DNA of 64,000 nucleotides from Thysanoteuthis rhombus (lineage: Eukaryota; Mollusca; Cephalopoda; Oegopsida; Thysanoteuthidae), in assembly GCA_963457665.1 (NCBI GenBank), contig OY735222.1, positions 35,157,891 through 35,221,890 of the forward strand, written 5' to 3'. Below the pieces are notes generated by a model. That model worked only from the letters and a program-made list of their open reading frames with translations. It did no database searches and was not told the DNA's origin. The number at the start of each line of letters is the position of its first letter. The first letter of the stretch is position 1. This document shows, piece by piece, positions 24,349-47,632 of this stretch. The translations under genes were made by a program, and so were the position numbers.

Positions 24349-24807
24349 ATGAAGAGAGGACAATCCAAGTACATGTCTTATTTACCCCCCTCCACTGCCA
24401 TTACCCCTGACCTGACAACCAACCCTGGAAGGACACTTTACCATTGTGGCAGCAAAACCAGCCGTGGCTCCACTGACAGCCTGAACAACAAGATGGATTT
24501 GTCTCGAGCCAGGACTAAGTTCTCCCGTTCTCGATGCAGAAATAATTCCAGCCCCTTGGCTACATGGGTTTTTATAATAGCTTTCTGTATCTGTCTGCAT
24601 TCTGCAGCTGTAGGTGTCGAAGGCATAGACCTTAAACTAAATGATATTCAAAGCTACCTGAACTCTCTGGATGGGTCTCATTCCAATTCAAAAACAGAAC
24701 CAGTTTCTCTCATGTGGGGAATTGGAGATACTACAGCATTTGTTGGCAGAATCTTTACTTATGCGATACCCTCGGATGCCTTTAAAGGAAGCATACAATC
24801 ATTTAAG
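24349..24807 (+). CDS. DAG1: Dystroglycan, first coding exon (N-terminus)
   Basis: First 153 codons of the dystroglycan precursor, the laminin receptor of the dystrophin-glycoprotein complex. The exon ends AAG|GTAAGT at 24807/24808 in phase 0 and joins in frame to 45452. Residues 120-153 carry the start of the first cadherin-like (CADG) domain, with the family pattern W/V-G-I-x-D-x-T-A-x-V-G-R-x-F followed by I-P-x-D. A hydrophobic stretch at about residues 71-89 looks like a signal sequence. Measured from Met1 it is preceded by about 70 residues, which is unusual. Met49 (24493) has a better Kozak context (A at -3, G at +4) and would leave a normal short n-region, so I favour Met49 as the main start while recording the longest frame. 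The first ATG also sits behind two uORFs. Identity is clear; only the start is uncertain. Confidence 0.9.
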
Positions 24808-25637
24808 GTAAGTTTTGTTCTGAAAATTATGTGGTGTCATTTGATAACATCTGAAATTGAACCCTTTTAGATTATAAATGAAATAGCACCTATCAAAAAA
24901 AAGATGGAATTATTTAATCACGGATTAATTATACAAGGATATATTTGATGCAAATTGAGGGCAAACAAGAATGCATACCTCAGATGAAGTTTATTTTTTT
25001 TGCTGATTATCTACAACTGTTCTTAGTTTCTGTTTCCTAATACTTATAAGGCATGAGATGGGTAAGAAATGAATTTGAGACAGTAGTAGTAATAGTAGTG
25101 ATATTACCTGCAGTAGTTGCTGTCCAACTTCAACTAAAGACACCAGCAACAACCCGTGTGTTTGCAGTACCCCCTTCCACTTTTTGTTTGCTTCAACGTG
25201 ACAAAACTAACTACCAATTATTATAAGATGGCTTATTAGTAAGCCTTAACCATGTATTTGATTTTTTTTTTTTTTTTTTCCTCTGTCTCTCTTATGGAAG
25301 AATACGTGTTTGTCTGGTATAATTGGAGTAAATCTACAAAAAATTCCGAGAGAAAACACATTGAATATCTATTGCTTCCCAGGCAAATATGGGCAGGAAG
25401 CTGAAGATGTTACAAACGCGTCTGTAAATTTATATATAATCCACGTGTGTTTTACTGAAATGGTTACTTGAGCAGTCTTGATAACTCTCACGATTGTTTG
25501 AAGGCTTAAAATAGAAACCATCTGTGAGCGGAATTTTCTAAAATCCTGGTGTAAGAATCTGGCAGTAGGTGTGGTAATTTATTATGTCGGCTGTGTGTAT
25601 GTGTTTTACTACTTTCTTACTCCTCGGAATGTAGGTT

Positions 25638-25641
25638 AGAG

Positions 25642-25668
<27 letters not shown>
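25638..25668. repeat. (TA)n microsatellite
   Basis: About 15 TA units inside the dystroglycan intron. Confidence 0.9.
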
Positions 25669-25674
<6 letters not shown>

Positions 25675-26994
25675 TATCTTGCTTATAAACAATCTTGACT
25701 CCACTAAATGATCTTGTTCCTCACTGATCCAAACCAACTAGAGTAGGTAGCAACTTGATTAATGTTCCAATCCAAACGGGTTTCAAATTTCAGTTTCTCA
25801 TGGTAAGCACCTGGCCCAACGTTTTTAGGATCGTGTGATATTCCATATCTGCTGTTTTTTTTGTCATGTAGAGGCATTTTGCTTGCACTCGTGATTCCCT
25901 CTTGACATCTTTTAGAATTTATACCCACTTGATACTACAATACATCTGCCTGCTTGTAAAATTTGTAATAAATATTATTTTCAATAATGAGAGGGAAACC
26001 CTTTGATTTCACTTGCGTAGTTCTTGCCTGTCGAGGCTTCCTTACCAAAGATTTTCATCTGGACTTTGCATAACTTTTGAATTTTTACACATCGATTCCT
26101 ATATAATAGTTATAGTATAGAAAATTCGAATTGATATATTTGCAAAAAAGTATGCAGTATTCAGTCTGGTGGGGTGGAGGTCAGTTGCCTCAGAGCAGCA
26201 CCTCTCCATTGCATTGAAAGATGAGGATAGTAGGTCACTCTGACACCTTTGTGACACAGTACATAGGGACTGGGCAATTTTTGTCAATATCATCATGTGG
26301 GTGTGTTGCATTCCACCTTCGTGGGGAGGCAAATGAATACCTATTTTTATCAGAGCTTGTTGAATTCTACCTGTGTTGATGCAACTGAAAGAGGTCAACT
26401 GGTGCTTTGTCTTACCTTGTTTCAATTCATCCATCTGAGAGAGATCATTTGATGCCCGGAGGTGAGTAACCATGTATGTTCCGCCTTACAGCACAGTAGT
26501 TACCAATGAGGAATGTCATTCCCCTGACCCCTGAACACACGGGATCTGCTTTTCAAAAATGGTCCTCCTCTCTCATTGCCCTTGAACAAGACATGCAGAA
26601 TATTCTTCGTTTTCTTTTCTTCAGACATTGAATTCTGAGTGTATGCGAACTTTCAGTGCTACCGTGTTTTACACTTGTACTCTCTATTGTACTACCCCTT
26701 TCCTTGGGACCCTCAATGGATCCGAGGACTAAGTCATGTAGTGGACATCCGGCAATTATAGGTAGTCAAGTATGACTACAGGAATCTTTATATACAGCTA
26801 TTGTGACCTTGTAATGCCATCGACAAAGATCCTCATAGAAAGTACGGAAAGTATTGAAAATCTATATCTTATCAACCTGTGAAGGTGACTTACATAAATG
26901 TTGATATAAAATTTTGGTCAAGATGAAGTAAATCGGTCTGTAATGTTTGTGGTTAAAAGAAAAAAAAAAATTATCAGAGATTACGGATTAATTT

Positions 26995-27560
26995 GAAAGA
27001 TTTCAGACTGATAAGATATCTTGTATTCCCAAAATGATATCAAGGTGAACTTGAACCGAGTGGCTAACACAACCTGCTGAATTCTCATACTATGTAATTC
27101 CTAATATCATAAGAAAGTTCCTTGTTGGCAAACAAGTAACTGGAACTGTCCTAGTACAGACCCCCTGTTCTTCCTAACCATTTTATAAGCCTACTTTTGG
27201 AATACTCCAACCAATTTGTCGGTGATAAATATATTAAGATGTGTGCAACGTCTGAACTGAAAAAGAAACTTCGGTTGATGTAGATATAATTCACTTGGTA
27301 CATTTATTGTTCATTTGAATAATAATTCAACATCTGTAACAAGTCATTTTGATCAAAAAGAAATCAGCATGGTACTGTATATTTTCTGTGTTGGGGGGGG
27401 GTGTCTTATACCTCATGAACACAGATATGCATTCATAACTGACAAGAGCCAGCTCTTTCCTCAACTCTCCCATTAGAGTAGGGAGGAGGAAGCTATAGCT
27501 GAACATACCTCTTTCATCATCTCTGGTATTCTTTGCATGATATAACCAAGTCAATAGTTC
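26995..27560 (+). repeat. Dispersed intronic repeat, copy 1
   Basis: Matches copy 2 (36177-36890) in collinear order: GATTTCAGACTGATA, CCCCAAAATG-TATC / CCCAAAATGATATC, CCTGCTGAATTCTC, CCTAATAT, a GTCGGTG/GTCAGTG block, AAACTTCGGTTGAT, TTTATTTGAATAA, a G run (27394-27401), CTCATGAA and GCTGAACATA. It is non-coding, and the family is unknown to me. Confidence 0.6.
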
Positions 27561-29870
27561 AGTGTTGTGCATGCTGCAAAAGTTTATTAGTTTCAGTAAT
27601 TTATGATGAAAATTGGAATGAATGACATCAAACCAGAAGCATTTTATACATTACAAGACAACCAAAAGAAGATGAGCATAATATATGACCAGAACAAACT
27701 CTGATGGCTAATATATGAATGAATAAGACTATTCTATAATTATCATTTTAGTCATCGCTTTTGACAAATTGATTACGATGATATAGATAAAGTGAGTATG
27801 AACATAGACCCTACACTTCATTGCTAATCACCAGAATTAATTTATTTTTTCCTTTGCCCTCAGGTTGATACATTGTAGGGATATCTCAATTCAATACATC
27901 TGTCTACAAGGCTCTGTTTCAGCTGATGTCACAGACATGAACAAAATCACACCTTATAATATTGAATAAATGAAGAATGAAGTTGCGACTTTTTCAAGAA
28001 ACAATCTGTTTTCAATCCTCCTCTCGTTTGAATGGAATGAAAATCACAATTCCTTTCATTTTAGTTCTATTTCTCTTTAATCTTTTCTGCTTGGAGAAAT
28101 TCTTCTGTTCTGTTTTATTTTGACTGACAGACTCTGTCGCCCGTGGCAACAGCGAATGAATATGAAAGGATGGGGCTTTGTGGGACGCTGAATCCTGTTT
28201 CTTTTTACTTATAAATGAAACAGATGTGTCATCATTAGCTTATTGAACTTGTTGAGCAGTTGAGGCTGCAACGATTGTTGATGAATATTCTTGTTCAATT
28301 GACTGGATGCACATGATGTCCTCCCCACCTTTAACGGATTGTTGTCTACCATTTCAATAGTTAATTTGATGGTCTTGGATATTTTGTGGAGTTCAGTATC
28401 TTACTATAATCCACCCAGTGTCTGTCTGTCATTACATAACTATAAAAACTGAAAGGAAATCAGTTCACGATTATCTTCTACACAAAATAGGTGACTCTAC
28501 AAATTCTTCTATCCCCTACCCCTTGATTACTTCTTCCATAGCCTATGGTCCATCCTGCTACGAAACGTCATTGAAATGTATTGAGAACTCAAGTACTACT
28601 GTGTAAACTGACAGACGGACAAATTAATACATATACCTCTTCCAATCCTGTTGGCAGAGGTAGAATATCAGTTTATCTAGAACTCTGCCATTCTGGGCTC
28701 ACTGGCTGCTTCTGTTTCTTTTCTGTATTTAGGCTGTTGTTGTTTCTTTCCTTCTAGAATTTTCCAAGCCAGTACCATTAAACATTTCCTAATGTTACAC
28801 TCGTTAACTTGTTTCTTGAATATTCTAGCCGTATTTGTTTTGTCATTTGACAGCTTTACTGTTTACTCCATGAATGAACTTCAAGATCCTCAATTCAGAT
28901 GAAGCAATTTTCTCTACTTAATTGTTAAAGTAAGCAAAATTCCAGCTGTGTGAGTCTAATTGCTGAAAATGAGGAAAATAAAGGCTTTTATGTCGTCTTG
29001 AAATGTCATTTCACCTTGACATTTTGGCATAGACGTAGGAACAGTGTAGAGATGGAAGTGTTGAAAGGTCTTCTGTAAGTGTTATAAATACAGGTCTGTG
29101 AGCTTATAAGATTTGTTCTGCACCAATCTGAAAACCTTCTACTTCAGGAACTTTAGCCCACTCTACTTCCATGCATTCATTTTCTCTCAAGTCTTTTATC
29201 ACTACCAACCAAGTTAAAAGAGGTATATATATTCACTTTGGTCCATGCAATATCTCTGGAAGTTTTCAATCAGTTTTGACTATGGAAAGTAAGTCTTGGA
29301 CTAAGGAAGAATTAACTGAAGTCGGTAGCAGATCAAAGAATATTTTTCATTCATTTTTTTAACTAGTGTATCGTATCGGCTGGGGTATACGCTCTGAGTG
29401 CCTTGTATCATCTGATAGCAAAACTATAGAATTTCAACTTATTGTAAAGCTTAGAACTACTTCTGGAGTAGATATTCCTCATTGAATTTTCAAATGAATT
29501 TTTCTGATGGGAGTGGTATTAGTAGAAGGTTGAACAAGTCAATCCAACAACTTTCTCTTACTATCCAATAGTCTTCCTTCTTTTTAGCAAAGGGAGGTAA
29601 TTCATGAAATATTTCTTGGACCTCAGTTAAGTGACCGGTCCGCTTTCACTTCTAATGGGCTTAGGTACACAATGCATCACTTGAACCTAGTTGTACTCAA
29701 ACTTATTTCTCTCTCTCATCCTCTGTTATGGGGAGCCATGGCACACATTTTAAGAATAGTTGGATTACCCTGTGTATCTAGTGACTTGAACAATATGAAT
29801 TATCCTTCTTCGAAACATTCCAATTTCCTCTGAAATACTTGAAGTCCCAGAGGGATATTGGTTATTGAAT

Positions 29871-30128
29871 TAAGGCAGTCGTCCCCCTCTAATGCAGGTG
29901 TTGGGACCAAAGAAAGGCAACCGCATTATAACTGAACTGCAGATGATGAGTTAATTGAGTGCTCCACAAGTTCACCTGTGTGAAGTGTTCTTATCACAAA
30001 ATCGCAGATATATATGTACAATTGATTGCACAGTATAATTGATTGCAAAATCTAATTTCCTAGTCATTGTTTTCTACTCACTTTTTTTATAAACTGCCAA
30101 CTGCATTATAATGAGGGACTCCTGCATA
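29871..30128. mobile_element. MITE-like element with pogo/Tigger-style ends
   Basis: The left end GGCAGTCGTCCCCCTCTAAT and the right end, read on the other strand (TGCAGGAGTCCCTCATTATA), form imperfect inverted repeats of about 28 bases, each bordered by TA. The internal motifs AACCGCATTATAACTGA and AACTGCATTATAATGA repeat. CAGTCGTCCCTC-type ends with a TA target are typical of pogo/Tigger-derived short elements. No transposase is present. Confidence 0.45.
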
Positions 30129-31826
30129 ACTGTGCTTTCTGTTATCTTGCACTAATCCCTCTGTCTGTTGGAGGAATTTTTTCTGGAATGACTCCTCTTC
30201 CATTTGTGATATTCTTCGTCAAAGAAGGAGATCTCATTGTTAACAAACCAGGGCAATTCATCATTTCAGACCTATCAAACATACAACTGGGGTTTTACAC
30301 TGGGGGCAATCATATTTGAATGAGCCTCAACAGTTGTCTTTTTATAAAAGAAAATTTAACCCAGACAAATTTTAGTTGGGGGTCAAATTTTCATAATTAT
30401 TGATTCCACCTATTGGATTGTCTTGAATATAAAAGACAATATGAGACTCTGAACTACTTACGAAACCCATTTGATGAAAATTCGATAAGAGCAAATAGAA
30501 AATTTTACAACTGGTATTTATTCAGGTTGATATGGCACAAGGCAGCATCTACTGGATATGGAACTCATTGAAAAAGGTTTCTAAGATTAACCTGATGAAA
30601 ATTTCTTTACAACAAGAACCTACATAATTCAAAACCTTGATATAATTTGCAGGCTGTTCTGACAGAAAAAGAGGAAAGGGCTATTGCGAACATTTGAACA
30701 CAAAAATACTGTTGCATGTGTTCGTTATGCTGCTGATAATATAACTATAACTGCTTCATTTTAACCCATAATGAACGCAAGAATTTCTGTTGCATTAACC
30801 TTTCTAATGACTGAGGTTAACATACTTGCACCAAGCACTGCCTTAGGTATCAAAGCCATACACTAGTGGATATATAGATGTTTTGTAGCTTAGATAAGTT
30901 ATGCCACCAGGCACGTGAATGTCAACACATGGAATCTTAATCAGTAAAAAGGCTATTTGTGAAGGAGAAAGTTGCAACGAAAGGGGGTGGAGTGATGGTC
31001 TGCAGAGAGAAAGTCTGAAATGATATTTTCACACACTCCATGTACAGAATATTCCTGAGAGACTTGCAAAAACTGGACAAGCATATCCTATAACTTGTTA
31101 AGATTGCTATTTTGGGTCGATATGGCTTTTTTCGATAGAGAGGTCTTATTTACCTCGGCCAATAGAGGTGGAAAAGGTGTATTTATTCGCTCATGTCTGT
31201 CTGCTGTCTGCACACTATATCCAAAAGTTCTCATGAATTTCGATGACATTTTGTGTGGAAGGATAGGCCAAAGGCTGGGAGAAAATTGATTGAATTTTTA
31301 GGCAGATCCAGGAATTTGTTTTTGATTTATTTTTCATATATCAAGAAACAGTGAATAATAAACCACGGTTTCCTCCTCTCCATAACTCTCGTGAACTGAA
31401 TTTCATTTTGTTTTCCATGTATTGCTGCGGTTTTGAAACTTTTAAAACTTCTCCTATAAAGAAAACATTCTGGCGGACCCTATTTTTTGCATTTACTTTT
31501 TAGACTAATTAATGAAATGGAATAAAGAGTAATTTTTGGCTTTTACCAATCCTATTAATTTGAAATGGATTCTATTTGAATTCCAATGTAAGGTACAAGG
31601 CTGTGTGGAATCCTGTTCTATGATGGCATGGCATGGCATGGCATTAGCAGAGGTGTAAGCTTTAAAGTGTTTTCTAGTTATGCAGGAATCCCTTGTGAAA
31701 TGGTGAAAATAGAATTCCTGCAACAGGAAGGAATGAAATCGTTAGAAAGATTCTGGCACTTTGATTTTTTAATGCGAACTACTTGATTCATTCTCTGGTG
31801 TTGTCATTTCAATGATCTTCATTCCA

Positions 31827-31851
31827 TTTTTTTTTTTTTTTTTTTTTTTTT
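31827..31851. repeat. Poly-T tract
   Basis: About 25 T residues within the intron. Confidence 0.9.
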
Positions 31852-34800
31852 CCACCCCATGATTGTGCTATTTTGTCAGTATGTGCTTGGTTAATTTCTT
31901 TCTTTCTTTTTAAGGTTTCTCAGAATTTTCCTGAGGTTTCGTGGTAGCTCTTGAGGTTTAAGAATTTTGTAGAATTATTTTTGAATAACATTCTAACTTG
32001 GTAATATGCACTTATAAGTCTAGTAAAGGTGAGTTTCTGCCTGAACACAGATATACTCTCCCATTTTTATGGTAGGATAAAATTGCATAGATTTCTTCTT
32101 GATACTAGAATGAAGAGTCAAACAATATTGACTTGTCTTTTCATATATCTGGACATGTTTCCAAAGACTCAGCTTGGGTAGTTATCATATTATATATTAT
32201 TGAGCCCTTTTTATAGGTTCTTCAGTTTAGAGTGCTGCTCTGTGATTTTTCTGTTTGTGGTATCAGTCTTCAGTACCTTGCCAGAATCTGTCTATTTCTT
32301 TGTCATTTGAATGTTTGGTGTTTTAGAATTTCTTACTTTAGTCTTCTCACTGTGATGCTAATAGAGAAGGCAGCTCTGAAGAATGGAAATAGATGGAGAA
32401 ATATCAAGTAGCTTCCAATCTGATTTTGATGGCTTCTATTTTGACCTTCACAAATTGAACTTTCGCTGGTGAGGATTTATGTCATTAAAGTCAACCATCA
32501 ATTTGTGGCAAGAGCAACCCAGTTGCATTGCTCTAAATGCAACTCTAACTTGGACTATACAGTATGACACACAAGAAAGCTGAACAGTTTGTTTTCTCAA
32601 TAAACAATGGACCCTTTCATTAGAAGTTATAGAAAAACAAGCCGAAAAGGCCATCCAACTTCTTAGTTGGAGGGTCTGTTGTGTGACTGGAAACTTCTGT
32701 CATCTGAACTTCAGAAGATGCAATGACTGAAGTTTCCGGTCATCTACAATTAATGTGCTAATTACATCAAGAGAAACATGGCTGCTTTTTGGTGACGTAC
32801 ATACATTTGGGGCTATTCATGGGTAAGCCTGTCTTATAAGTCCAAATAACAATCTTGGAATTGCACTTAAAATTAGTATGACTGCTAGACTAATATCCAT
32901 GGAAAGAACTGATGTCACATCATCCAACTTGAATCCAGTTCACATTCCATTGATCCTATTGAGAGACAAAAGCTGTATCATGAACGATGTTCAGCATCAA
33001 CAGAAGCCATATTGATCCAAGAAAAGGTTGAGCTATTTGAAGAATGAATAAATGAAATTAAACAATGTCTCTTTGCTATATGACCTTCATGGAAATTCTG
33101 ACCCTTGTGATGTACCATGTTTCTATCCCAGTTGACAGTCAGAGGACAATTCTTTATACAATCTCTGAAAAAATAAATAATAGAACAAAGTACATCCTAC
33201 TGCAGTGGCCCCATCTTCCTGGCTGCAGAGCGTACCACTGGACCATTAGGAAAATATCAATTTTTTATTTTCTCTATGAAATAAAAGCAAATCTATTTCC
33301 ATTGATCTTGATATCATATTCTTTTGATAAACCATTTTAGGAATAAAATCGAGGGTTTTATCCATTTAGCACCCAGTTGTGATTAATACCCCCCCTCCCC
33401 ACATCCCCGATCGATCAAAGAAATTGAAGGGACCCCCGTTCTACAGTTTCATCGTTTGGAGTGATTGTCTTCATTATTGTATGATTTGATGGGACGTGCG
33501 GAAAAAGGAGATTGAAGTCAATTACGATCAAATTTTCCGTATTTGTTCGTCGTGTTCATTAGGATTGAAGTTAAACGAGACAATCATGTTTTCAATGCCT
33601 CTTTCTAGTAAATCCTTTGGAAGATCGTGCAAACCTGGAATGGTTATCTGATTGAAAGGTTGGGCTGGCGGTGCTGAGAAATTGCGTTATTGTAAGGCCA
33701 CCATGTTAGCAATGTTTGCCCCTAAGGCCGTAGGGTATAGCAATGAGAAATAATCAACAGATTAACAATCGAGTCGGCAAAATAGTCCCGAACATGCCAA
33801 ACATTTTTCTGTTTTCATCAGATGAAGGATTGTAAATCATTATTTAGAATTTTTTTGACTAATTACCTTCATCTATTCATCACAACTTGCATCAACCAAT
33901 TACTGTGTGGCACAATATTCACTTCACTTCATATTGCTGAGAGTTGTTATACATCAAATATCGTAACTATCAGAATGAAGTCTTGGTGGTTTAATAGAGA
34001 AAGCAGGTGGGGCTAAACAGTGCTTCCCCATGCCCAAGGGATATGGGTTCATATACCACTTAAGACTTATTCTTTATTTTTCTGGTCACTGATTTGCTTT
34101 GCGGTAAAAAGAGAGAAATCTTTATTACTGTAAATGACTAACATAGCTGGTGAACATTAGTGATTGGTATGAGAGAAAGAATCAATAATCACCATTTAAC
34201 AATCAATCTAACTTTTGCAAATCAATGCCAGTTGGCATTCCACTGTTTAACAAGGTGGAAATTGAATTGAATACTTTGAATCACCCTCTCAGAAATTCAA
34301 GTGGAGATATCTGAATGATATCAAATTTATATTAATATCCGTACCTAGTATGAAAGTATCACCGTAGCCCACTTGTGTACCAGGAATGATTATCTGCAAA
34401 AACTATCTTGTTTATTGAAATTATCTTGTAAGATACAGCTTTTATCTAGAAAGAGTTTTTAGATGGTCCTTACTGGTGTAATTTTCAAGGCTATAACCCC
34501 TCCAAATGTGACCCCCTTAGGTACTCAAAAGATGAAAATCAGTAGACCACTTGACTGGTTGGACGGTCATTAGTGAGGCTACACTGATTTGATAAGATTT
34601 TAGGGAAAAGTATACAATACCTGTACATACTTATTTGCTCCATCAGTCTGTTGTGATTAACAACTTGATGATCCTAGGTTTGATTTCGGAAAAAGAAACA
34701 AATCCATGAAAAGAACTGGTACTGCAGAATACGTAGCAGAAGGTGTCCCTGCTTGGGATCTCCTGGGTTTACTTGCTCCTCAATTATTCATTGCTACCCA

Positions 34801-34949
34801 CAACTGACCAGTTTGATCATTGTGGTTGGATTCAAGTTATTCATGTACTGACATTTATATGTACCTATCTATCAGGACTTGGCCCAGCCGAAATGTCCAT
34901 AGTAGAAATTTGTAATTTTATTCTCACACACACACTTGTCTCGGTGAGT

Positions 34950-35030
34950 AGGGATATATATATATATATATATTAAAAATAATATTATATATAATATTAT
35001 TTTTATATTTTATTTTATTGTTTTCCATCT
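34950..35030. repeat. TA-rich low-complexity tract
   Basis: A (TA)n run is followed by AATAATATTATATA palindromic sequence and A/T-only DNA. Confidence 0.85.
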
Positions 35031-36176
35031 TGAATTATAAATTTATTATTCAAATTGTACTGATGGCTCTTACATCGAGGTAACTTTATCCCCTCCCTCC
35101 TCATTGCTCAATTTACGAGGTGAAAAGAAGCAGATATGGGTGGAGGTGATTCATGATTTCCCTTGGAGTCTTGCTAGTCTTTTTATTGACATTTGAAACC
35201 TCCTCTCCTAATGATTTGTACAAATGCCATTTACTTACGAGAGGAAAATTTGATGAAATCCATTTTTCATGCGAATTGAATTTGAAAGCAGCTTCAAGTA
35301 TGAAAGACTAGATTCATTATTCATGCGCGATCGTATTCACTTACGGTTTAATTTTTTGAATGATTTTTTTTCATCTGATTTTTCTTTTCACTTTTAACTT
35401 CAGTATCTCTTTTATTTCATGTGACTTGCAGCAGACATTTTTACCATCTGCATAAATTACATATTCTCTTTTTGGCCACACCTAACAATGAAAAACTGGA
35501 TCTATGAATTGACATCTATATGAGGATATATTCATGCATTCATCTCTTGCCCAATCCCCATCAATCTTATGTATATTTCTTTCAAGAGTGTATATAAACG
35601 TGTCTGTAAAGAGGAATGTGTTTGATTCCTTGGGATAAGGAAATAGATGACTTTCTATCCTTATTGCATTTTTTATGTATATAATGAAATCAATTGATCG
35701 TTGAAAAATCATTGAAATCTGGAAAATTCTGCTCACTCTAATACCATGTAATCTAGTGTATAAGGCAGTCTTGGCACTTGAGGGGTTGACCCTTGATTCA
35801 TGGTTTGTTTGTTTTTGTTTTTTTGTTTTTTTCTTCCATCTCCGAGGAGTTGCTCTTAGCTCTTCCCATCATGTTCAAATTTCAACCTTTTCAAATTATT
35901 TCTCTTGTATAGGTCTACCACTGTTAACCTGAAGAAATGACTTTGAAAATTCTACCTATACATGAAAATATATGGTATATGATGTGAAGATCTTCTTTCT
36001 CAAATCTTCTCGACTTCTAGCTATGATTATAGTAAACATTTTAATTTGTCTACAAACATCAGAACACAACTATTTTGGGGAGAAAGCAAGTCTTTGGTTT
36101 ATGTTCTTTCCTTTTAGTTTTGGTGAGACCAGAGTTGATTAGTTCCAGCAACAGTCGGTATCAATCTTGTGTTGGA

Positions 36177-36890
36177 GATTTCAGACTGATATAGGAAAAT
36201 ATCTGTTATCCCCAAAATGGTATCTAGTTGAAGCCTTAGTGACCTTCGACACCTGCTGAATTCTCGTGTTCGAATACTTCCTAATATTATCTTCAGATAG
36301 TTCCTCCATCAGTAAACAAGACATTGAAAGCCCTTCTCTGTTTTCTTCCCAACATCCAACTCATTAAATAGTCCACCGATTTGTCAGTGTTCAATACATG
36401 AATCAACTTTTATCACCTAGTAGGTAATTACATTAGCAGAGCCAAAAGTTTGTCCTGCCACTGCAGGTGCCTCTGATCAGAGGACGTGTTTGGATTCGAA
36501 TGTTGTGCTGTCCTGTCAATTTCAGTCCTACAGTAACAGACTCACAAGTAACGGGCTCTCTAAGAGATTGTTTGAAAAGATCGTTTCTCTTGCAACTACT
36601 GCAGTGAAAAGGAAACTTCGGTTGATCTGTGTCCTTTGCTCAATGTATCTGCACTCTTATCAATGTATTATTTATTTGAATAAGGATTTTGCTTGGGTAA
36701 CTAGCCATTGTAAATCTGCCTGATTCTATTTTATATTTCCTGTAGTTGGGGGGGATCTTCCCTTGTCTCATGAATTCAATTGTATATGAAGTTGATACAG
36801 ACAAGAACTATCTTCCTACTCGTCTTGTGAATAGTAGAAAAAGTGATGGCTGAACATAGCTTTTATCATTGTCTTCTCTTCTGGCATCAC
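36177..36890 (+). repeat. Dispersed intronic repeat, copy 2, with insertion
   Basis: Collinear with copy 1 at 26995-27560 but longer. The extra stretch of about 170 bases lies at about 36420-36590, between the GTCAGTG block and AAACTTCGGTTGAT. The extra piece contains a GTTTGGATTCGAAT motif resembling a tRNA B box, so it may be a SINE inserted into the older repeat. Confidence 0.55.
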
Positions 36891-39220
36891 ACACATTTTT
36901 TTTTTTTTTTTCTATCAAACAAACCAATTGATCACTAAAGTGTTTGAAGTAACAGTGTGACCTGGTGACAGAAATCTATTGAGGAAAAACTCTCTTTGAA
37001 TTTTACAAAATACACAGCCACTTTCCCCTCACCATAAATTCTCTTTCTCTGAGGCTTTCACCAACATGGATTAATCAGATGAATGATAGAGATATGAGTA
37101 GAATTACGACATTTGTAAGTTTTTGCCTACTTTTGAAAAAAAAAGGTTCACGTTGTTACAAGATAAAGAGCTGGCAGGAATATAGTTTCCTTGATTTATC
37201 AAGGTGTACAATCTGTCAAGGGTTTTTTTTGTATGGCTTTTGTAGCTTGTGAATGCAGGCTCTGACTGAGGGAGAGGGGGAATGTCAGCTGGCATGGGCC
37301 CACAATTCTGAGAGGGCCTACAGCTTTCCATTATCCATCTTTTTATAAATCCTTCATTTTGATCTGCTCTTGTAATTATATCCTGCACACCAATGTGTGT
37401 ATACATACCGATGTATAAATTGTATGTACTGAGAACTGATCACAAAAATACTTGATCAGCTGTTACAAATGGGGACCGGGATTTCTCATCTGGCCTTGGG
37501 CCTATTACCAGCATAGCTTAGCCCTGCGCGATGGCTATCATTTTTTTTTTTTTTTTTTCTTTTTTTTCTTTTCTTCTTGATGATTCTAGGCTGCTGCAGC
37601 TCTTCTGACAGTCTCCTTTTGGTTTCTGAGAATTTTTTGTCGGAATCTGATCCCGAACCGTTTTACCAAGGGGCGATCAGTTATGGTAGGCTTATCGTAG
37701 AATGACTCAGTACTCTACACATGCATACTAGTATTCAAAGAAAGGTAACCTTGATCTGAATTCTTTGAGGATGCAGGTAGGAATACCATTGTGGTGGTAG
37801 ATTTATGAGGCAACAAAAGGATGGTCGTTATTGTTCATCCGTGCATGACCCATGTAGATGTCAATGCGTAGATGTGGGCACTAATCCATACGCCAGCATT
37901 TCTCCACTTTTTGTACTTTGAAGTGATATGTGTGCTGAGGGAAGAGTGTTTGATTGTGAGAGATAAGGAAATAGATAGCCCCCAATTATTTCTCATTGGA
38001 TTTCTGAAATATCTGTGCCTGAAATGAGTTCTCCTGTTGTTTTGTCTTGTAACGAGGTTTGTATCTCCAATGCTTGTAATGTCTTCTCTGTTTGATAAAT
38101 GTCTCTCGCAGTCTGTCACTCGCTCTCTCGCAGTCTCTCTTTCGTGCACGAAACCATATTTTTCTTTATTTCCTTTATTAGATTCCTTCCCATTAATTTC
38201 AAGTGAAGTACATGCATAAACAAAATACTTTAGTTTACACATGTTTCTCTCATCTTTATTAATTCCCTCTTCTCGAACTTGACCTAAATACCATTTTGGT
38301 TCCACTCGGTTTCTTGTACTGCAACGAATTCCTTCTCGGAACTAAATCTGCCTCCTGCCATTTAGAACTTGGCAGTCATCTCCCCACTTTCAGTCCTCAT
38401 TACAAATTTCTGCATTGTTGTATACCATTTAATCCCGATGAAGAATATTCACGGATATACAGATTTCCATGCCAGCTGAAAGTATAGTATTCTTATTGAA
38501 GTTTTTCGGAAGCTGAAATGGTGTAAAGTGAAAATCCTAACCTGAATAAAGGTTAGCATAGTATGTTAGATTGAAGATGATTATAGACGAAGGATGTGCC
38601 CTGCCTCTATGATGACTTGTTGTAAAATGGAAGCTGAATGATATTTTTGTTTTTTATCATTTTGTGAAAATAATGGGGGTAAAGCAAACTTTCATTTAGC
38701 AGAGACAACTTGTCTTTGATTTTTATTACATGAGATAGAAGATCCCCCCCCCCCCGCAAACTTGAAACAGAAGAAGAGTCGATAGTTTCAAAGACTGAGT
38801 AAGAGATACTTTCATCAGTAAACTTGATACCTTTTAAGTGGAAGACTCTATAGTAATGGCTTGAGAATCAAGAAAATCACTTGGTTCATAATATCAATCA
38901 GGCGGGTATATTAAGCGCTCTGCCCTTAATGAGTAAGCTGAGTTTTTACAAGAATCAACGACTTTGAATTTGATGAAATTCATATCATCTTGTTGGAAAC
39001 TTTTTATTATGATTAAATTTTCAATTATACTGACTCGGGGCTCTGGAAAATGCTAGATATAAATTATTAGCGAATTTTTTTTCTCTGCTAAAAAGAACAA
39101 TTCTCCAATCTGTAAAAGTATAACAAGAGTTTCAGTGTTGGAAATGAGAACGATTTCAAAAGTCGGGCACAAATGATTTATATTCAAATTGAATTCTCAG
39201 TTACCCATCCCAATGGCACC

Positions 39221-39280
39221 GATGGTACAATGGAGAGATCTGTGGTTTGAATCCACTAGGAAACAATTTTTTTTTTCTAA
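39221..39280 (+). repeat. Degenerate tRNA-like (SINE) fragment
   Basis: An A-box-like TGGTACAATGG (39223-39233) is followed by a B-box-like GGTTTGAATCC (39244-39254) and, soon after, by a run of T. The box spacing is shorter than in a real tRNA gene, so this is a decayed SINE head rather than a functional tRNA. Confidence 0.35.
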
Positions 39281-40092
39281 CAATAGTAGTTATAGTTGAG
39301 GACATGTTTAGACTTGAATAAAATCCTAAAAACAGGACCATTTAGGAAAATGCGTACCTGCACTAAGAGCTCCTTGGAAAACACTGGAAGAGAAATTAAA
39401 ATGAGAAAAATGTTGTTGCAGTGGCAAAATTAACCAATCTTATTTTACTAACTTGGGTTATAAGTGGGTACATGCCTCTGCATTCTTTTCATCTGTTTTA
39501 TATTGAAATATTCTTCTTCAGTGTTTTCAAGTTTTTGCAATTGCTTTTTTTTTTTTTTTTTACTGACATTAAAAAAAGGTCAAAACTCTTGCATCTATAA
39601 AATTGTTAAAACTCGCACCTCACAATTAGTTGTTGAACAAAAAAAAGAAAAAGGAATTATCAGAGAAATTGACTTTTTCTAATATTTTTGAATTCTCGTT
39701 TGTTAGACAAGTTCGCAAAAACCTTCTCTGTATTGGGACCACTGTATTTAAGAGCAAGTGATGCGTAGCGATTTGCATTTGTACCTTTCAATTTGTTTAC
39801 ACTTATGTGGTACACCTCTTGTAAGCCCCCCCTGGTTGGGAATGTATCTATCATCATGTTTTGATATATTTGTACCATAGCCTGCATAAACAACACTAGA
39901 AGTGGATAAGTAATCTGAGGAAAAGTTTGATGTTTATATTGAGAGGGGTCATGTGTGTATATATATTATATAAATACATTCATTGGTCTCCAGTATGTAT
40001 GTGTGTGTGTATATAATATATTATACTATATGAGGTATATAAATATATATAATTGAGTCATCCACAGACAGCTGATTCGTTGTATGACAACT

Positions 40093-40469
40093 CTTCAGTG
40101 TGGCTATAGACTATCCATTATCCATCCAGTACCACAAGGTAGGATCCAAACCTTCGCTTCAGACCCAGAGGCTAGCATTTTACCTCTGCCGCAGAACTGG
40201 ACGGTCAGTAGGGTTGAATTGAAGTGATATATCTACTTACGCACAATCCCTCATCTACCAGAGTGCTCTATTCCAGATATATAATATCTTCAGTGTGGCT
40301 ATATCCAATACCCCATCCAGTACCACAAGGTAAGATCGAAACCTTCACTTCATGCCCAGAGGCTGACATTTAACCCCTACCCTACACAGAACTGGATGGT
40401 CAGTAGGACTGAATTTAGGCAATATATTTACTTGTGCGCTATTCCCCATCCACCAGAGTGCTCCACCCC
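40093..40469 (-). repeat. Tandem pair of tRNA-like SINE units, about 184 bp each
   Basis: Unit 1 (40093-40276) and unit 2 (40288-40469) align from CTTCAGTGTGGCTATA through CCATCCAGTACCACAAGGTA, CAGAACTGGA-GGTCAGTAGG and CACCAGAGTGCTC, at roughly four matches in five. On the minus strand each has a B-box-like GGTTTGGATCC or GGTTTCGATC, preceded by a GAGGTAAAATGCTAGCC part resembling a D-arm. This suggests a tRNA-derived SINE duplicated in tandem inside the dystroglycan intron. Confidence 0.6.
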
Positions 40470-41951
40470 AAAGTTATTTATTCAGCCAGATGTTCTCGAA
40501 GGCTCCCTGTGAGATATGAAAGAGGGAAAAGTTTGGGGAATCACTGAATTAGTCCATAAGGCTTTGGAACTTCACATATATCAAATCACCATTGGCCCGA
40601 CCAACCAGCCAATAGGGCTTCAGATCTATACTCTCTCTGCTAGTATGTGGGTGCTTCCAGTTGATCCTGGTCACTTTTTGGAGGCTACTCCCTTGAAGAT
40701 TTACATGAGTACTCTTCTAGGCACCCTCTAAGAACAGTTGTTTTTACTCTACCAACGTGCTATTTATGAGTCCTGTGATCATAAGTACTCATCATTTTTT
40801 TTTTCCTTCCATCTGTCACTAAAAAAGTTTGCTCTCATAAAATGTTTGCTTACTGATATAAAAAAACTTTACTTGAATGAATATAGGATTCAGAAATAGC
40901 TGGTTTGGTTTTGTACATGACTTTCAAAAAAGAGCTTTGAAAACTTTTATTAAGTTGGTAAAGCAATATTTTTACATTGTCTGTGCAACACTATAAAAAA
41001 ACAGAACATGACTTTCCAAAAGTTTTCAGAAGATTGGGCCCTTACTGCAGATCGATCTGTTCTGGGATATGAAATTCTGCTCCTAATCAGAAAATTCTAA
41101 CTGCAGAAGGTAAATATTGTCTCGTTAGACAACTTCTTAGATTTGATGAAAGTATAGTGACTGATAGCATGTTGGGAAAAGTATTCTTGCTCATCTTTTT
41201 ATATTCAAGAATTATCTCCTGCGATCCACAAGTTTTACATTCAGTTTCAACAATTCACGGTTCAGTCTTGAATGATTTAATGGGTATATTTCGGGAAGTG
41301 ATGTGGCCTACCACGTGGAGCTGCATCATGAAAAATATGCTGTATGTAATAGATTGTGAAAGGTTCGGCAAATCATGTAGACATCGTAGTAATAATTGAG
41401 TTTTATCAACTAGAAATTATTTATGTTGACAATAAATCTGATCAAAAGGTTGAAATAGTTTGTTCCCTTCTTTTCATGTTACTTTTTACCTTCATAATAT
41501 TTTTCTCGCTTTTTCATCTTTACTTTTCTCAGACAGGATAGATTTTTTTAAAATAGCAATAAAAAATATATATATGGATGTAAATAGTGGCATTAAAAAA
41601 AAAAAGATAGTCAATTACTGCTCTGTAGTTTCTTTGAATTCATATTTGTTTTTTGTTTTTTTACTAACATCTACCACTCACTCACTTATCTGATCCTCTT
41701 TTGAGGATTTCTGAGCAGATTAAGAAGCTGTGTTGAAAAAATATTGATTCCACCATAATTGATGAATCTGTCACCAGGAAAAATGATGTCGAGTTTTGCA
41801 ATTCGAGAATTTTTACTGTATGCTTTACTAAATTCATCTATATGTGGATTTACAATTTGGAAAGGGTGAAGTGTCGGTTTGTCACAATGTTCATGCCTTA
41901 GGATATGAGTTTTTGGGACCAATAGTATTTAAAAGGTTTCAGCAAAAATAC

Positions 41952-41952
41952 T

Positions 41953-41985
<33 letters not shown>

Positions 41986-41986
41986 A
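41952..41986. repeat. (TA)n(TG)n microsatellite
   Basis: TATATATATATG followed by alternating TG units, in the intron. Confidence 0.9.
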
Positions 41987-43034
41987 AAGTAGTTGAGAAT
42001 GGAAAACCCATAATAACCAGATATTTTCCCCTAGACATTCACAGCCTGTCAGTAAGACTTCAGATGTCTCTTGACTAGTTCAAGCTGTTCTGGATTGTAT
42101 TTTGAATTTTATTAGAGGAAGAATTATCACTTTAATTCCCATGAAAAAAATTCAGATATATTGGAATTTCTGGAAGATGTTTCTTTTTTTTCCTTGTATA
42201 GAAGTACTGAACAGAGTTTCCTTGTTTCAAATGGTGAGTAGGAGATGTTTGAGCAAAACTGCCACCTTTATGTGGAAGAATCCACTGGTAATGAGAGAAA
42301 CGAAAATATCACAATCATGTACGAGGATTTTCAACTTGCATTTCTTTTATCTTGATTTCTGTTGCTTTTTCTCCAACTTTTCACACTGTTATTCTGCATG
42401 GATTTATAAACAGTGGAATTTTTCAATCAGCACAATGATAGTTCCAATAGGAGGCCACAGGAAATAGGATGAATGAAATACTAATGGAGAATTAATGCCT
42501 GCTTCAGATAATTACTCAATGATGACAGATATTAGTACTTCTGTCTTCTCATCACCCACCCATAATCACAAAGTCAGAATCCATACTTCAGAATATTCGA
42601 ATGAATATTTTGTTGTTAGTTAGATTACCTACCATTGCTCAGGACGATGTTGCTTGGCTTGTCATGTTCGGCGTAAGCCTTGGAAGGAGACTTCCTTCAT
42701 CAGTTATTTCATCCTATGAATTGATGTATTCAAGTAAACTTGGGAGGTCCTGCGTGGCCAGGCAGGATAGCTGCATGAGGAATGGTATCTGCAAGCTTGG
42801 CTCAAACTCTGGCTGGAACAGTTTTGTGTTCATGCCTTCAGGGCATGGCATGAATCCATCTCTCCCTTCAGGTATGGGTGAAATGAGTGAAGATGCTTGT
42901 TACCTCCATGTTCCGCGTATTGCTAATGGACTGCGTGAGTAGTCATGTGATATGCGGAGCCTGTGACGTGAACCAGTACCCCACTCCCTCTCTCTGGTAA
43001 TTTTCACTAAATTGGGTTTGATATATAAGCCCAA

Positions 43035-43790
43035 TATGCCAGTACATGCTCATGAACATACATATATACACATACACATGCCGTACATGCTAACACATGC
43101 CCTACTTACTACATATGCATACACACACATGTACCCATACGGAAATTACCCATCACACTCACCATATACTGACAGTCTGTATACCCACACATACACTTGC
43201 ACACTAACAAGCATACATGCCTAAAACAGTCTGACAAACATGAATCTACACATGCTCAGACATACATACAGATATGCACCTATGCTACATACACACACTA
43301 CATTCAGACCCTTGTAACTTGAGTTAGCGTGTGATGTGCATAGGTATATGGTATTTGAGTTAATGTGTGTACTTGTGGCAAGTGTGTGCACAGCATGTGG
43401 CTCATGTGTACACACACACACTATCTACAAGCGTACACATGCTATATACTCTCATGCACACTTGAACACAAATATACACACAAGCCATGTAAGCTCACAT
43501 GTACACACAAAGCCATAAATACCCACATACGCACCAATTACATATGGACATATTCCACATACACACATACCACACTCTCATTTCAGGTGTATGTATTTAT
43601 GGTGTCTATGTATTCATTGCATACATGTGTGTGTGTGCATAAATGTATTGTATAGACAAGTATATATGTAAGTATGCAAAATGTGTGTAATGAGTGCATA
43701 TATGTAGTTAGTGTATGTGGCTTGTGTGAACGTGTGAAGATATAGTGTTAGTAGTTACTATGCAGTGTGTGTGTCTGTATGCATACGTAC
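43035..43790. repeat. CA/TG-rich low-complexity region
   Basis: About 750 bases dominated by ACACAT, CATACA, TGTGTG and ATGTAT words. It creates His/Thr- and Cys/Val-rich artefactual open frames on both strands. It reads as a decayed microsatellite, not coding. Confidence 0.8.
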
Positions 43791-44257
43791 ATGAACAAAG
43801 ATGAATTCGTTTTGTAGAATTTACTGCAAGGGAATTCACCTCAGACTGTTGGTCCAAAGCACTGACGGCTGCAGTTTGTGTACAGGTATTACCTACTTAA
43901 TTCACAGTGGCAACAAATGTTGGGATCTGCCAGACTTGGGGTAGGGGGTCAGCAGTTAGTCAGGTTTTATATGCTGTCTGATTTTTGAGTATTCATCTCT
44001 CCCAGAACTGAATTTGAAGAGAATAGTGCGACCGTAGATAACATAAACCTTTGTTACGGTCTCCCCTGCATTGAACTTCTTGTTGGATTTCAAGTTCTTC
44101 ACTGTTCGAATTTTGCTTAGTTCGAAGGAAATTCAGTAATATAACGAAAGCTTCTAATCATGACCATGTGGATCACTTCATAAATATCAAGTATATTCTC
44201 CTACAGTATTTACTGAGTACATACAGCTTCATTTGAAACAAGGCCGCCCCAATGGGA

Positions 44258-44596
44258 CACATCATCATCATCAGTCTTTTAGTGTCCGTCGTTGGACATA
44301 GACCTTCCCCAGGATTTGCCACACTTCTCTATCATGGGCGTCACGGAGCCAGTACTTTCTGAACTTGTCTAGCTTGTCTCTCCATCTAACATTTTGCCGG
44401 CCTTGGTTGCGCATGTGGTCTGGGGGAATCCATGTTGTGAGTTGTGATGTCCATCGATTGTCTGCCATTCTTGCAACATGGCCAGCCCACCGCCATTTGA
44501 GATTTTTTTATGGATTCTATGATGTCTCTAACTCTTGTCTTTTCCCGGATGTACTGTGCTGTTTTGTGGTCTCTCCATGTGAGGCCCAGAGAGAGT
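44258..44596 (-). pseudogene. 5'-truncated RTE-like LINE 3' end with (TGA)n tail
   Basis: Read on the minus strand, it encodes WRDHKTAQYIREKTRVRDI, then after a frame change ARMADNRWTS, QLTTWIPPDHMRNQGRQ, WRDKLDKFRKYWLRDA and REVWQILGKVYVQRRTLKD. The 3' end is a (TGA)n microsatellite tail at about 44262-44273. It is the same family as 6990-7672 and better preserved at its end. It sits antisense in the dystroglycan intron and begins abruptly near 44596, as expected for a 5'-truncated insertion. Confidence 0.8.
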
Positions 44597-44667
44597 AAAA
44601 CTAGGAGTTTCATGAAATAACTGGAATATTATTCAGACATTTCACAAACTTGATAATCTATCCAAGC

Positions 44668-44739
44668 ACTGTGAAACTAGAAATTTCATGAAATTACGTG
44701 AATACTTTGTATTTCATGAAATCATTAGTTTCACAATCT
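44668..44739. repeat. 72-nt hairpin with ATTTCATGAAAT arms
   Basis: The left arm (44668-44694, ACTGTGAAACTAG then AAATTTCATGAAAT) pairs with the right arm (44711-44739) across a 16-base loop, with only a few mismatches. A third copy of TTTCATGAAAT at 44608-44618 carries the same AAACTAG flank. It adjoins the truncated end of the LINE. Confidence 0.6.
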
Positions 44740-45451
44740 AACTGAACATGTACATGTTTCACATTTATACTGAGGAAGATTTGATAAGATCCATGTCATG
44801 AGAGATTAAGGTTCCATCTGGCATCCAACAATGCAGGTACTTCTGGCCTTGAGAGATCCAAATTCAGACATCAAAGAAAAGCCTTCCGTAATGTCTCAAG
44901 CTTAGTTAATATGATTTGCATATCTCTTTTGGAAGCTGCTCTTGGAACTGTTTCAATAACCTGAGCTTTTCCTTGGATTTTTTGTACCACATGCAAATGC
45001 GTTTTAAACTAATCAATCCTAGCATTTTCATTATTTCATGACAAATGGATTTATTTGCAAATCCATAAGGAAATCCTTGTCATATCAGATTTGACTGATT
45101 TTGTCCACTTCTGATGATTGTCTATGAAGTGACAGGTCATGGACTAGTTCAACCATAAATATTATAAAAACATTGGTATTTCTAATCAAGTATCTTGGTT
45201 ATTTGAAAAAAATTCAAACTGGGTTATCAGGAGCTTCTTTTATTTTCTAATACCTATATATTTTTTCATCTTTTTCCATTTTATCAAAATTGGTCCCGAA
45301 TGAATTGAAAAGGAAATAATTATCACAGAAAATGAAAAAAAATTAATGAAACTATTTGTATGCATTCGAATATTTTTCTTCATTAAGTTTTAACCATTTG
45401 AATCCATGAATTAATTGATTTTTGTTTTGTTTTTTTTTTCCTCTTTTGTAG

Positions 45452-47632
45452 ATGACTGAAGCAGGAAAACCAGACTTACCTAATTGGCTCTACTTCGACC
45501 CAGAGACGCAGGTTTTCCATGGAGTTCCAACTCTCTCGAACATTGGACAGTACTACATAGAAGTTATTGCCATGGCCCCCAACGGAGGTGTTGCCAAAGA
45601 TGTCTTCTCCATCCACGTAACTAAGGAGAACAAGCCGATCGGTGCAACAAAACCACTGAAATTCTCCAGCAATGGTTCTGCTCCTTTTGTTCGTTGCAGC
45701 CCTGGTGAAGCTGAAACTGCCTTCACACTCGTAGTAGATGCCGACATGAGTCTCCTATCACCTCAAAGTATCGTCGGGCTTCTGAAAGATCTTGAACAGC
45801 ATTTGCTGCTCGCTTCAGAAATGTTTAAAGTTAGCCCAGCTGGTAACAAGCCAGTCTTTGATAACTCTGCCCTCGTTTCTGGTCCTGGAAATACTAAGAC
45901 CCCAAAACATCCAGGCATTTTAGTGACATGGCTTGTTGGCTGTGGCAAAGTTGAACCCCCACACATGCCAGTCTTGCAGAAGATAGAAACTACCTCATCC
46001 AATGGGTCATTGTCTGATGCTATCAAACATGGGATTATCGGTTGGCAGGTTACTAATAACAAGATCCAAGAAAAACGTGTCCGTCGAGCCATCATGGCAA
46101 CTCCTACCATGGGTTTTGTTCCGACAAGCATGACTCGTCACCATGGTAGCGATGCCATGACCCACCAGGTCCCTACCATGGCATCTCCCATTGTACCATC
46201 AACCCGAACTCACCAAAGGACCAGAACCAGACACCCTGAAACAACTGCTACTTACCTCCATCCATCTACTTATGACCCGACTGATGGTAGCATGCCGAAG
46301 ACTAAGACCTTGACGGATGGTATGTACACCATGACAACTGGTAGTATTGAACCAACCAGGGTTGATCCAGTGATGCCGACAAAACCCACCCCACCAATGA
46401 CCACACTTCCTCTGCAGTGCATGGATTACAAGGATGATCGCCCCATGGTTGACAAAGGTATACCACCAGTTGAAGTGGTTGCTGGTCAGGTAATGAAATT
46501 CAAGGTTCCCCCGGACACTTTTGTGGATTGTGAAGATGGAAAGACTGAAAATCTTCGGCTTGACTTCTTTTTTGAAAATTACAAACCAATCCCACCAGGT
46601 TCTTGGCTGAAAGCTGATAATAAGAAGCAGATGATGATAGGTCTTCCATTACCTAGTGATATTGGACTTCATAATATGTCTGTTGTTGCTGTAGATTCTG
46701 GGGCCTCCAAAGAGGTCTTAGACTTCTACTTCAAGGTTGTCCCCAATCCAAAAATGCCAGAGTCCAAGATAACCCACAAGATAAACATGGTCATTGATAT
46801 GGACTATGATGCATTCATGTCTGACATAGGAAATCGACTTAACGTGATGAAGAAGATAGCTCGATTATACGGTGACAAGAACCCCTCCAAAATCTCTGTT
46901 CTGGACATTGGCCAGGGTTCAGTTGTGTTCTCCTGGACAAACAACACTCTTGTCAGTGAAAAATGTCCCAAAGAAGAAACCAAGCAACTCCTCATGAAAC
47001 TGGTAGATGCTGATAAACAGGTGACGGATATGGCCAAGAAGGCCTTGAAGCCGTTCAAACTGCTCTCGGCCCAGATCACGCCGATGGGTCCCTGCAGTGA
47101 TACTTACATTACAGATTTGGTTGGCTCCACCCCAGTCATGCCAGTGTCCGACAAGCCTGTCCACACGCAGAAAGAGGAGACGGCAGATGATGATATTCTT
47201 ATTTCCACAGTCGTTCCAGCCGTCATCATCGTGTCGATTCTTTTACTTGCTCTGCTTGTCGCTTGCATTCTCTACCGTAAGAAGCGTAAGGGCAAGATGT
47301 CCCTGAGTGAACAAGAAGCGTATGCTGGCAAAGGAGCACCGGTTATCTTCGCTGATGAACTTGATGAAAAACCGACTGACTGCTCCCGGCCACTGATTCT
47401 TGATGAGGAGAAGCCACCACACCCGCCACCTGAATATCAGCCATCCAGTAGCGACAGTGCTCAGTCAACTCCACATCAGGATCGAAGAGGGGACAATGAA
47501 CCTAATTTGCCCGACAGCACTTCCCCACTTTATGAGCCACCTCCTCCTGTCACTGCCTCTCGAGGGAACAAGCAGCCGCGCCCCCATGTACAGCCCCCCT
47601 ATAGAACCCCACCACCCTACGTGCCCCCCTAA
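45452..47632 (+). CDS. DAG1: Dystroglycan, second coding exon (rest of alpha and all of beta)
   Basis: It encodes 726 residues (154-879 of the precursor; the human protein is 895). In order: the end of the first cadherin-like domain (to about 211); an S6-like alpha-N domain with the Cys235/Cys317 pair and a GPGN motif; a furin site RVRR at 362-365; a TPT matriglycan acceptor at 370-372; a Thr/Pro mucin-like linker of about 110 residues, shorter than in vertebrates; a second cadherin-like domain (about 475-584); and a SEA-like domain (about 585-713) with the alpha/beta cleavage point Gly642-Ser643, a following N-glycosylation sequon at Asn650 and the Cys658/Cys701 pair. One membrane helix (about 738-760) is followed by the basic YRKKRKGK. 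The cytoplasmic tail keeps IFADELD, PPPEY (811-815), PPYR and the terminal PPPYVPP that binds dystrophin or utrophin WW-EF domains. Stop TAA is at 47630-47632. No breaks are seen. Confidence 0.97.
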   Translation: MTEAGKPDLPNWLYFDPETQVFHGVPTLSNIGQYYIEVIAMAPNGGVAKDVFSIHVTKENKPIGATKPLKFSSNGSAPFVRCSPGEAETAFTLVVDADMSLLSPQSIVGLLKDLEQHLLLASEMFKVSPAGNKPVFDNSALVSGPGNTKTPKHPGILVTWLVGCGKVEPPHMPVLQKIETTSSNGSLSDAIKHGIIGWQVTNNKIQEKRVRRAIMATPTMGFVPTSMTRHHGSDAMTHQVPTMASPIVPSTRTHQRTRTRHPETTATYLHPSTYDPTDGSMPKTKTLTDGMYTMTTGSIEPTRVDPVMPTKPTPPMTTLPLQCMDYKDDRPMVDKGIPPVEVVAGQVMKFKVPPDTFVDCEDGKTENLRLDFFFENYKPIPPGSWLKADNKKQMMIGLPLPSDIGLHNMSVVAVDSGASKEVLDFYFKVVPNPKMPESKITHKINMVIDMDYDAFMSDIGNRLNVMKKIARLYGDKNPSKISVLDIGQGSVVFSWTNNTLVSEKCPKEETKQLLMKLVDADKQVTDMAKKALKPFKLLSAQITPMGPCSDTYITDLVGSTPVMPVSDKPVHTQKEETADDDILISTVVPAVIIVSILLLALLVACILYRKKRKGKMSLSEQEAYAGKGAPVIFADELDEKPTDCSRPLILDEEKPPHPPPEYQPSSSDSAQSTPHQDRRGDNEPNLPDSTSPLYEPPPPVTASRGNKQPRPHVQPPYRTPPPYVPP

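Follow-up and report, generated by a model that had tools for sequence, protein, structure and literature searches.

The window analysed here, a stretch of 64,000 nucleotides from Thysanoteuthis rhombus, carries the gene of a squid-like mollusc dystroglycan in which, from its predicted protein, a single intact acceptor for core M3 and matriglycan has very probably been retained. Matriglycan is the sugar chain that holds muscle to the surrounding matrix in mammals, and judging from the acceptor motif and the enzyme genes of the same genome, the mammalian mechanism probably works in this animal too.

Gene model and domain organization

The window protein is a dystroglycan (DAG1), as an earlier note made from the same letters had proposed; the Pfam model DAG1 matches it to the last model position with an E value of 5.8e-68 and a_DG1_N2 with 5.7e-18, and the solved alpha-dystroglycan chain 9c3c_A is matched with 6.7e-46, in an entry that we take to be rabbit dystroglycan. 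Entries 5n30, 4wiq, and 1u2c are matched by the IG1-S6 N-terminal domain, and alignments to experimental structures of both chains, alpha and beta (9c3c and 8yt8 among them), run along the protein. The model of 879 residues is spliced in phase 0 from two exons (Table 1) at the junctions AAG/GTAAGT (donor) and TTGTAG/ATG (acceptor), and the second exon is an open frame of 726 codons that contains the acceptor motif. An in-frame second Met (residue 49, position 24493) may be the true start, in which case all residue numbers of the window protein would be 48 lower; the sequence also suggests a 5'UTR splice acceptor right before 24154. The mucin-like region comprises 108 residues, 31% of them Ser or Thr. 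Positions 44240 to 44600, which presumably resemble a retrotransposon-type repeat, lie within the intron. A search of Rfam gave 0 matches at gathering scores. The intron itself interrupts IG1 at the site of the intron described in PMC5216574 as universally present among dystroglycan genes.

Table 1. Features of the dystroglycan gene, in positions of the window
Feature	Position	Strand	Basis
First coding exon: start, signal-peptide-like segment, initial IG1 portion	24349..24807	+	In-frame ATG, phase-0 donor
IG1 intron, 20.6 kb	24808..45451	+	Splice sites, phase 0
Second coding exon: remaining IG1, S6, furin site, short mucin-like region, IG2, SEA, transmembrane segment, cytoplasmic tail	45452..47632	+	
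DAD, the DxD pair of the S6 domain, aligned with vertebrate DADLT (mouse D194/D196)	45737..45745	+	Alignment
RVRRAIMATPT, POMGNT2-type acceptor motif overlapping the furin site	46076..46108	+	Translation, pattern match, alignment
RVRR, furin consensus	46076..46087	+	Translation; human RVRR 309-312 as given in PMC9917425
TPT, predicted core M3 acceptor threonines Thr370 and Thr372	46100..46108	+	Sole TPT of the window protein
Gly-Ser alpha/beta cleavage site, SEA domain	46916..46921	+	Alignment with 9c3c_B (beta-dystroglycan) begins at exon residue 490
Transmembrane segment	47195..47275	+	Sequence reading; 8yt8_O alignment runs to residue 615
Proline-rich PPPY C terminus, dystrophin-binding type	47597..47629	+	DAG1 match reaches the last of the 290 model positions

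The acceptor motif

The peptide RVRRAIMATPT, residues 362 to 372 of the model, had been pointed out in the earlier note, and both translation and the two-exon model reproduce it. It stands immediately after the IG1-S6 domain, which is the homologous place, and is the single exact match in the window protein to R-x-R-x-x-I-x-x-T-P-T, a pattern that reportedly comes from Halmo et al. 2017. When it is called conserved here, one animal is being compared with vertebrates. Apart from residue 362, only residue 409 fits the R-x-R plus Thr spacing; the peptide there, RTRTRHPETTA, is without the Ile and the TPT and was rejected as a second full acceptor.

A chance match was rejected. The pattern occurs once in the six frames of the window, compared with 0 of 100 first-order Markov windows, and arises in 26 of 200,000 shuffles of the motif's own 112-residue stretch; in addition, the motif block is identical to vertebrate site 1, as present in 9c3c_A, at 9 of 12 positions, against 61 of 204 (30%) just upstream (binomial P, 0.0016). 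HMMER placed the block on both vertebrate sites, RIRRQIHATPT and RTRGAIIQTPT, and it combines the A-T-P-T of site 1 with the R-x-R-x-A-I of site 2. Both vertebrate sites might be derived from one ancestor like the window motif, which is our guess.

These figures also bear on another reading of the block, in which it is kept chiefly as a furin site, I-x-x-T-P-T is chance or leftover, and no matriglycan is built. The sections of the survey PMC4582122 concerned with these sites describe weak conservation of the Thr pair, alongside furin sites that several invertebrates have maintained, and the second dystroglycan of the same genome (see below) has likewise kept a furin-type RKKR without an acceptor. 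Against this, I, T, P, and T stand at the exact spacing although the upstream positions are so divergent, the full pattern is rare among the shuffles, and the searched enzymes were found, save for the CRPPA domain; we regard this reading as improbable and hold to a predicted matriglycan acceptor.

Enzymes of matriglycan synthesis in the same genome

The genome (2.73 Gb in 514 contigs) was searched for POMGNT2, POMK, LARGE, FKRP, FKTN, RXYLT1, B4GAT1, POMT1/2, and CRPPA. POMGNT2 is a frame of 602 codons on contig C1; at E ≤ 0.001 it has seven matches in the PDB, every one of them to POMGNT2 (best E, 2.2e-126). POMK lies on C22; the two PDB entries that it matches with E ≤ 1e-10 both belong to POMK (best E, 2e-70), and it shares 48% identity over 240 residues with the human query. 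FKRP, on C9, has FKRP as its one PDB match (E 1.3e-136) along with an FKRP_N domain. FKTN is represented in part, by a single FKTN_N exon on C7 that covers positions 216 to 278 of the 278 in the model (E 4.5e-6), and the adjoining frame, by eye, appears to resemble fukutin. RXYLT1_C has two exon matches on C31 (E 6.8e-57 and 1.7e-12), one of them with a stop inside.

LARGE in this genome is a two-domain gene, nearly complete. Thirteen of the 15 matches to the protein query, at 54 to 83% identity, fall within C46:19310993-19332422 and cover query residues 2 to 595 of 622, with 65 to 69 and 596 to 622 unmatched; the exon translations hold LDTDI and SDIDF, i.e., both DxD motifs. Three of the 13 matches contain one stop each, and on our reading of the sequence, these stops appear to sit at match edges, where an intron would begin. 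A search with the PF01501 profile did not find the GT8 exons of LARGE (1 match, on C2), which the protein query later found. The other two query matches are a GT49 gene on C7 and one place on C47. The GT49 gene has a single domain (model positions 2 to 329), and because its PDB matches are solely two LARGE1 sequences, it was called B4GAT1 by architecture, fitting a B4GAT1-like gene.

A POMT2-like frame (L033, C1:56779968-56780702) has PMT, MIR, and PMT_4TMC domains; its gene is an unbroken open reading frame of 858 codons, compared with the exon-split POMT1-like gene on C9. We take the C1 frame to be POMT2 and the C9 exons to be POMT1. The ISPD_C profile, for the C-terminal domain of CRPPA, gave 0 matches in this genome and likewise in 0 of 14 control genomes, which does not imply absence. 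Thus, of the orthologues that the earlier note had named for a check in the same genome, POMGNT2, POMK, FKRP, and LARGE with both DxD motifs were found and FKTN in part; LARGE and POMK, whose absence it would have counted against its interpretation, are both present.

Several further features of the assembly were observed. The LicD family is expanded (L003 to L014), with 15 matches, all above the cutoff; among the 12 loci read, one is FKRP and the other 11 have LicD-type frames, with Pfam applied to L005. Besides POMGNT2, the GT61 genes include L018, L019, and L021, with uninterrupted frames of 603, 478, and 525 codons, respectively. The mitochondrial genome (C514; 20,544 bases) contains a duplicated block of 3,150 bases holding COX1 (99.0%) and a second duplicated block of 1,326 bases (98.7%), whose reading frame suggests COX3, an arrangement that we take to be that of oegopsid squids. 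C198 contains a further repeated copy, with COX1 matches 20,544 bases apart.

As far as the account in PMC8478517 goes, all of the enzymes except LARGE2 are reported from Annelida upwards, with Mollusca discussed, and choanoflagellates have the enzyme set while dystroglycan was not found in them. The enzymes might likewise serve other substrates in this animal, with dystroglycan bearing only core M1, but it would then stay unexplained why the window protein has an exact acceptor and has retained the DxD of S6, and we consider this very unlikely.

A second dystroglycan gene

The genome search with dystroglycan also matched contig C30 (28% identity; E 8.6e-32). The gene there (C30:51565149-51549338, minus strand; L028 to L031) has four exons with usable splice sites and encodes 1,351 residues, its start codon and exon joins being a model from sequence. 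Profile matches (DAG1, E 8.8e-22; S6 model, E 7.1e-7) and similarity to vertebrate alpha-dystroglycan (E 3.2e-14) identify its family, and it retains the phase-0 IG1 intron, the Gly-Ser of the SEA domain, and a C-terminal PPPPY; its RKKR lies at the same domain edge as the furin site of the window protein. A mucin-like region rich in Ser and Thr extends over 663 residues in two exons (36% Ser plus Thr, 16 Trp). A full-length alignment was misplaced by this long region, and the two dystroglycans were therefore aligned domain by domain, giving 28 to 29% identity (77 of 277 and 108 of 376 aligned residues).

A scan of the second-gene model found neither the full R-x-R-x-x-I-x-x-T-P-T pattern nor an R-x-R with a Thr at the corresponding distance. 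The second-gene peptide chosen for comparison with RVRRAIMATPT is RKKRFAQRFMTPVPTPV, and the lone TPT of the protein, at residue 904, is outside the motif. At the S6 place, the window protein has VVDADMS and the second protein IFAVNLK, so that DxD is replaced by A-x-N. In a hand tally of eight residues chosen from vertebrate data (R, R, I, T, P, T, and two D), the window protein keeps 8 of 8 and the second protein 1 of 8 (Fisher P, 0.0014, or 0.007 if 2 of 8 are counted). The second protein is 26% identical to its vertebrate counterpart (68 of 259), at which level keeping one or fewer of the eight has a P value of 0.34. Its loss of the acceptor and the DxD is expected by drift alone at this identity; therefore, absence in the second gene alone does not show selected loss.

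Two dystroglycan genes per genome are also described in PMC5216574 for teleosts and lamprey, as the gene duplicates DAG1a and DAG1b; unlike those, the second gene here is distinguished by its low identity to the first, its long Ser/Thr-rich region, and the lack of acceptor and DxD. A literature search over titles and abstract openings gave no report of a second molluscan dystroglycan. Dystroglycan may possibly have been split in two in this animal, one gene able to carry matriglycan and the other Ser/Thr rich and devoid of acceptor and DxD, an idea that we put forward tentatively and consider somewhat doubtful.

Comparison with known dystroglycans

The window gene and vertebrate DAG1 share the order IG1-S6-furin-mucin-IG2-SEA-TM-PPxY, the IG1 intron, the site-1 acceptor, and the S6 DxD. 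They differ in that the mucin-like region is short in the window protein, the residue after TPT is Met instead of the Pro of vertebrate TPTP, and there is one acceptor compared with two in mammals (T317/T319 and T379/T381, as given in the preprint PMC10769215). According to the portions of that preprint on mouse and cell work, adult muscle stays healthy with just one matriglycan, even if it is short, although loss of site 1 cost embryos. With one TPT and one full motif in the window protein, a single-site dystroglycan is therefore plausible.

Among molluscs, the dystroglycans in the survey by Adams and Brancaccio (2015; PMC4582122) resemble the window protein in their short mucin-like region and, in some, the presence of a furin site. 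In the passages of that survey on the Thr-Pro-Thr-Pro site, the site is relatively weakly conserved and Lottia is among the species without it; compared with Lottia, the window protein has kept TPT, followed by M. The matriglycan enzyme set in such animals is already published; what is added here is an intact recognition pattern that lacks the final Pro, a search for the enzymes in the genome that carries it, and a second gene that contrasts with the first.

Proposed order of events

What was observed is the motif and where it stands, the gene model, and the listed enzyme genes; from these we infer every enzymatic step in this animal as follows. POMT1/2 would mannosylate Thr370 and perhaps Thr372. 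POMGNT2 would then read R-x-R-x-x-I-x-x-T-P-T in the endoplasmic reticulum and add GlcNAc, POMK would phosphorylate the mannose, FKTN and FKRP would add ribitol phosphates, and RXYLT1 and B4GAT1 would add the primer. LARGE would polymerize matriglycan with the N-terminal domain still attached, and furin would cut RVRR last, releasing this domain, so that the arginines would be used twice, early by POMGNT2 and late by furin.

The mammalian POMGNT2 (AGO61) is described in PMC3836086 as acting at Thr317/319, with a phosphorylated trisaccharide mapped to Thr317. Furin cuts off the N-terminal domain at RVRR (PMC9917425), and PMC12632563 places the cut in the trans-Golgi network, without effect on dystroglycan's own function. 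In the in vitro experiments described in PMC12514197, LARGE1 built matriglycan on prodystroglycan and none on the furin-processed form. Because LARGE1 works on the uncleaved form, POMGNT2 would read the arginines before furin does; with furin acting after LARGE1, the statement in the earlier note that the cut exposes the acceptor therefore reverses the order. That part of its interpretation falls, while the suggestion that the pathway acts here is strengthened by the homologous place of the motif and the named enzymes in the same genome.

In mice without the N-terminal domain, LARGE1 still produces short matriglycan (PMC9917425); attachment of this domain therefore aids length but is not absolutely required. 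The DxD of the S6 domain is proposed in a 2025 preprint (PMC12632563) to be a xylose-phosphatase motif, and in the mouse experiments described there, changing D194/D196 to Asn shortened matriglycan.

Implications

With TPTP as the yardstick, the survey PMC4582122, in the passages cited, judged the Thr pair to be weakly conserved outside vertebrates. The window protein has the whole recognition pattern even though the last Pro is missing, and most of the enzymes are present in the genome; therefore, conservation may be underrated. A single-acceptor dystroglycan and an acceptor-less sister gene in one genome would make the acceptor rule and the DxD phosphatase claim testable outside mammals. If dystroglycan is indeed split in two, the second gene would encode a dystroglycan naturally free of matriglycan, and its lack of acceptor and DxD together would be independent evolutionary evidence for the DxD serving matriglycan.
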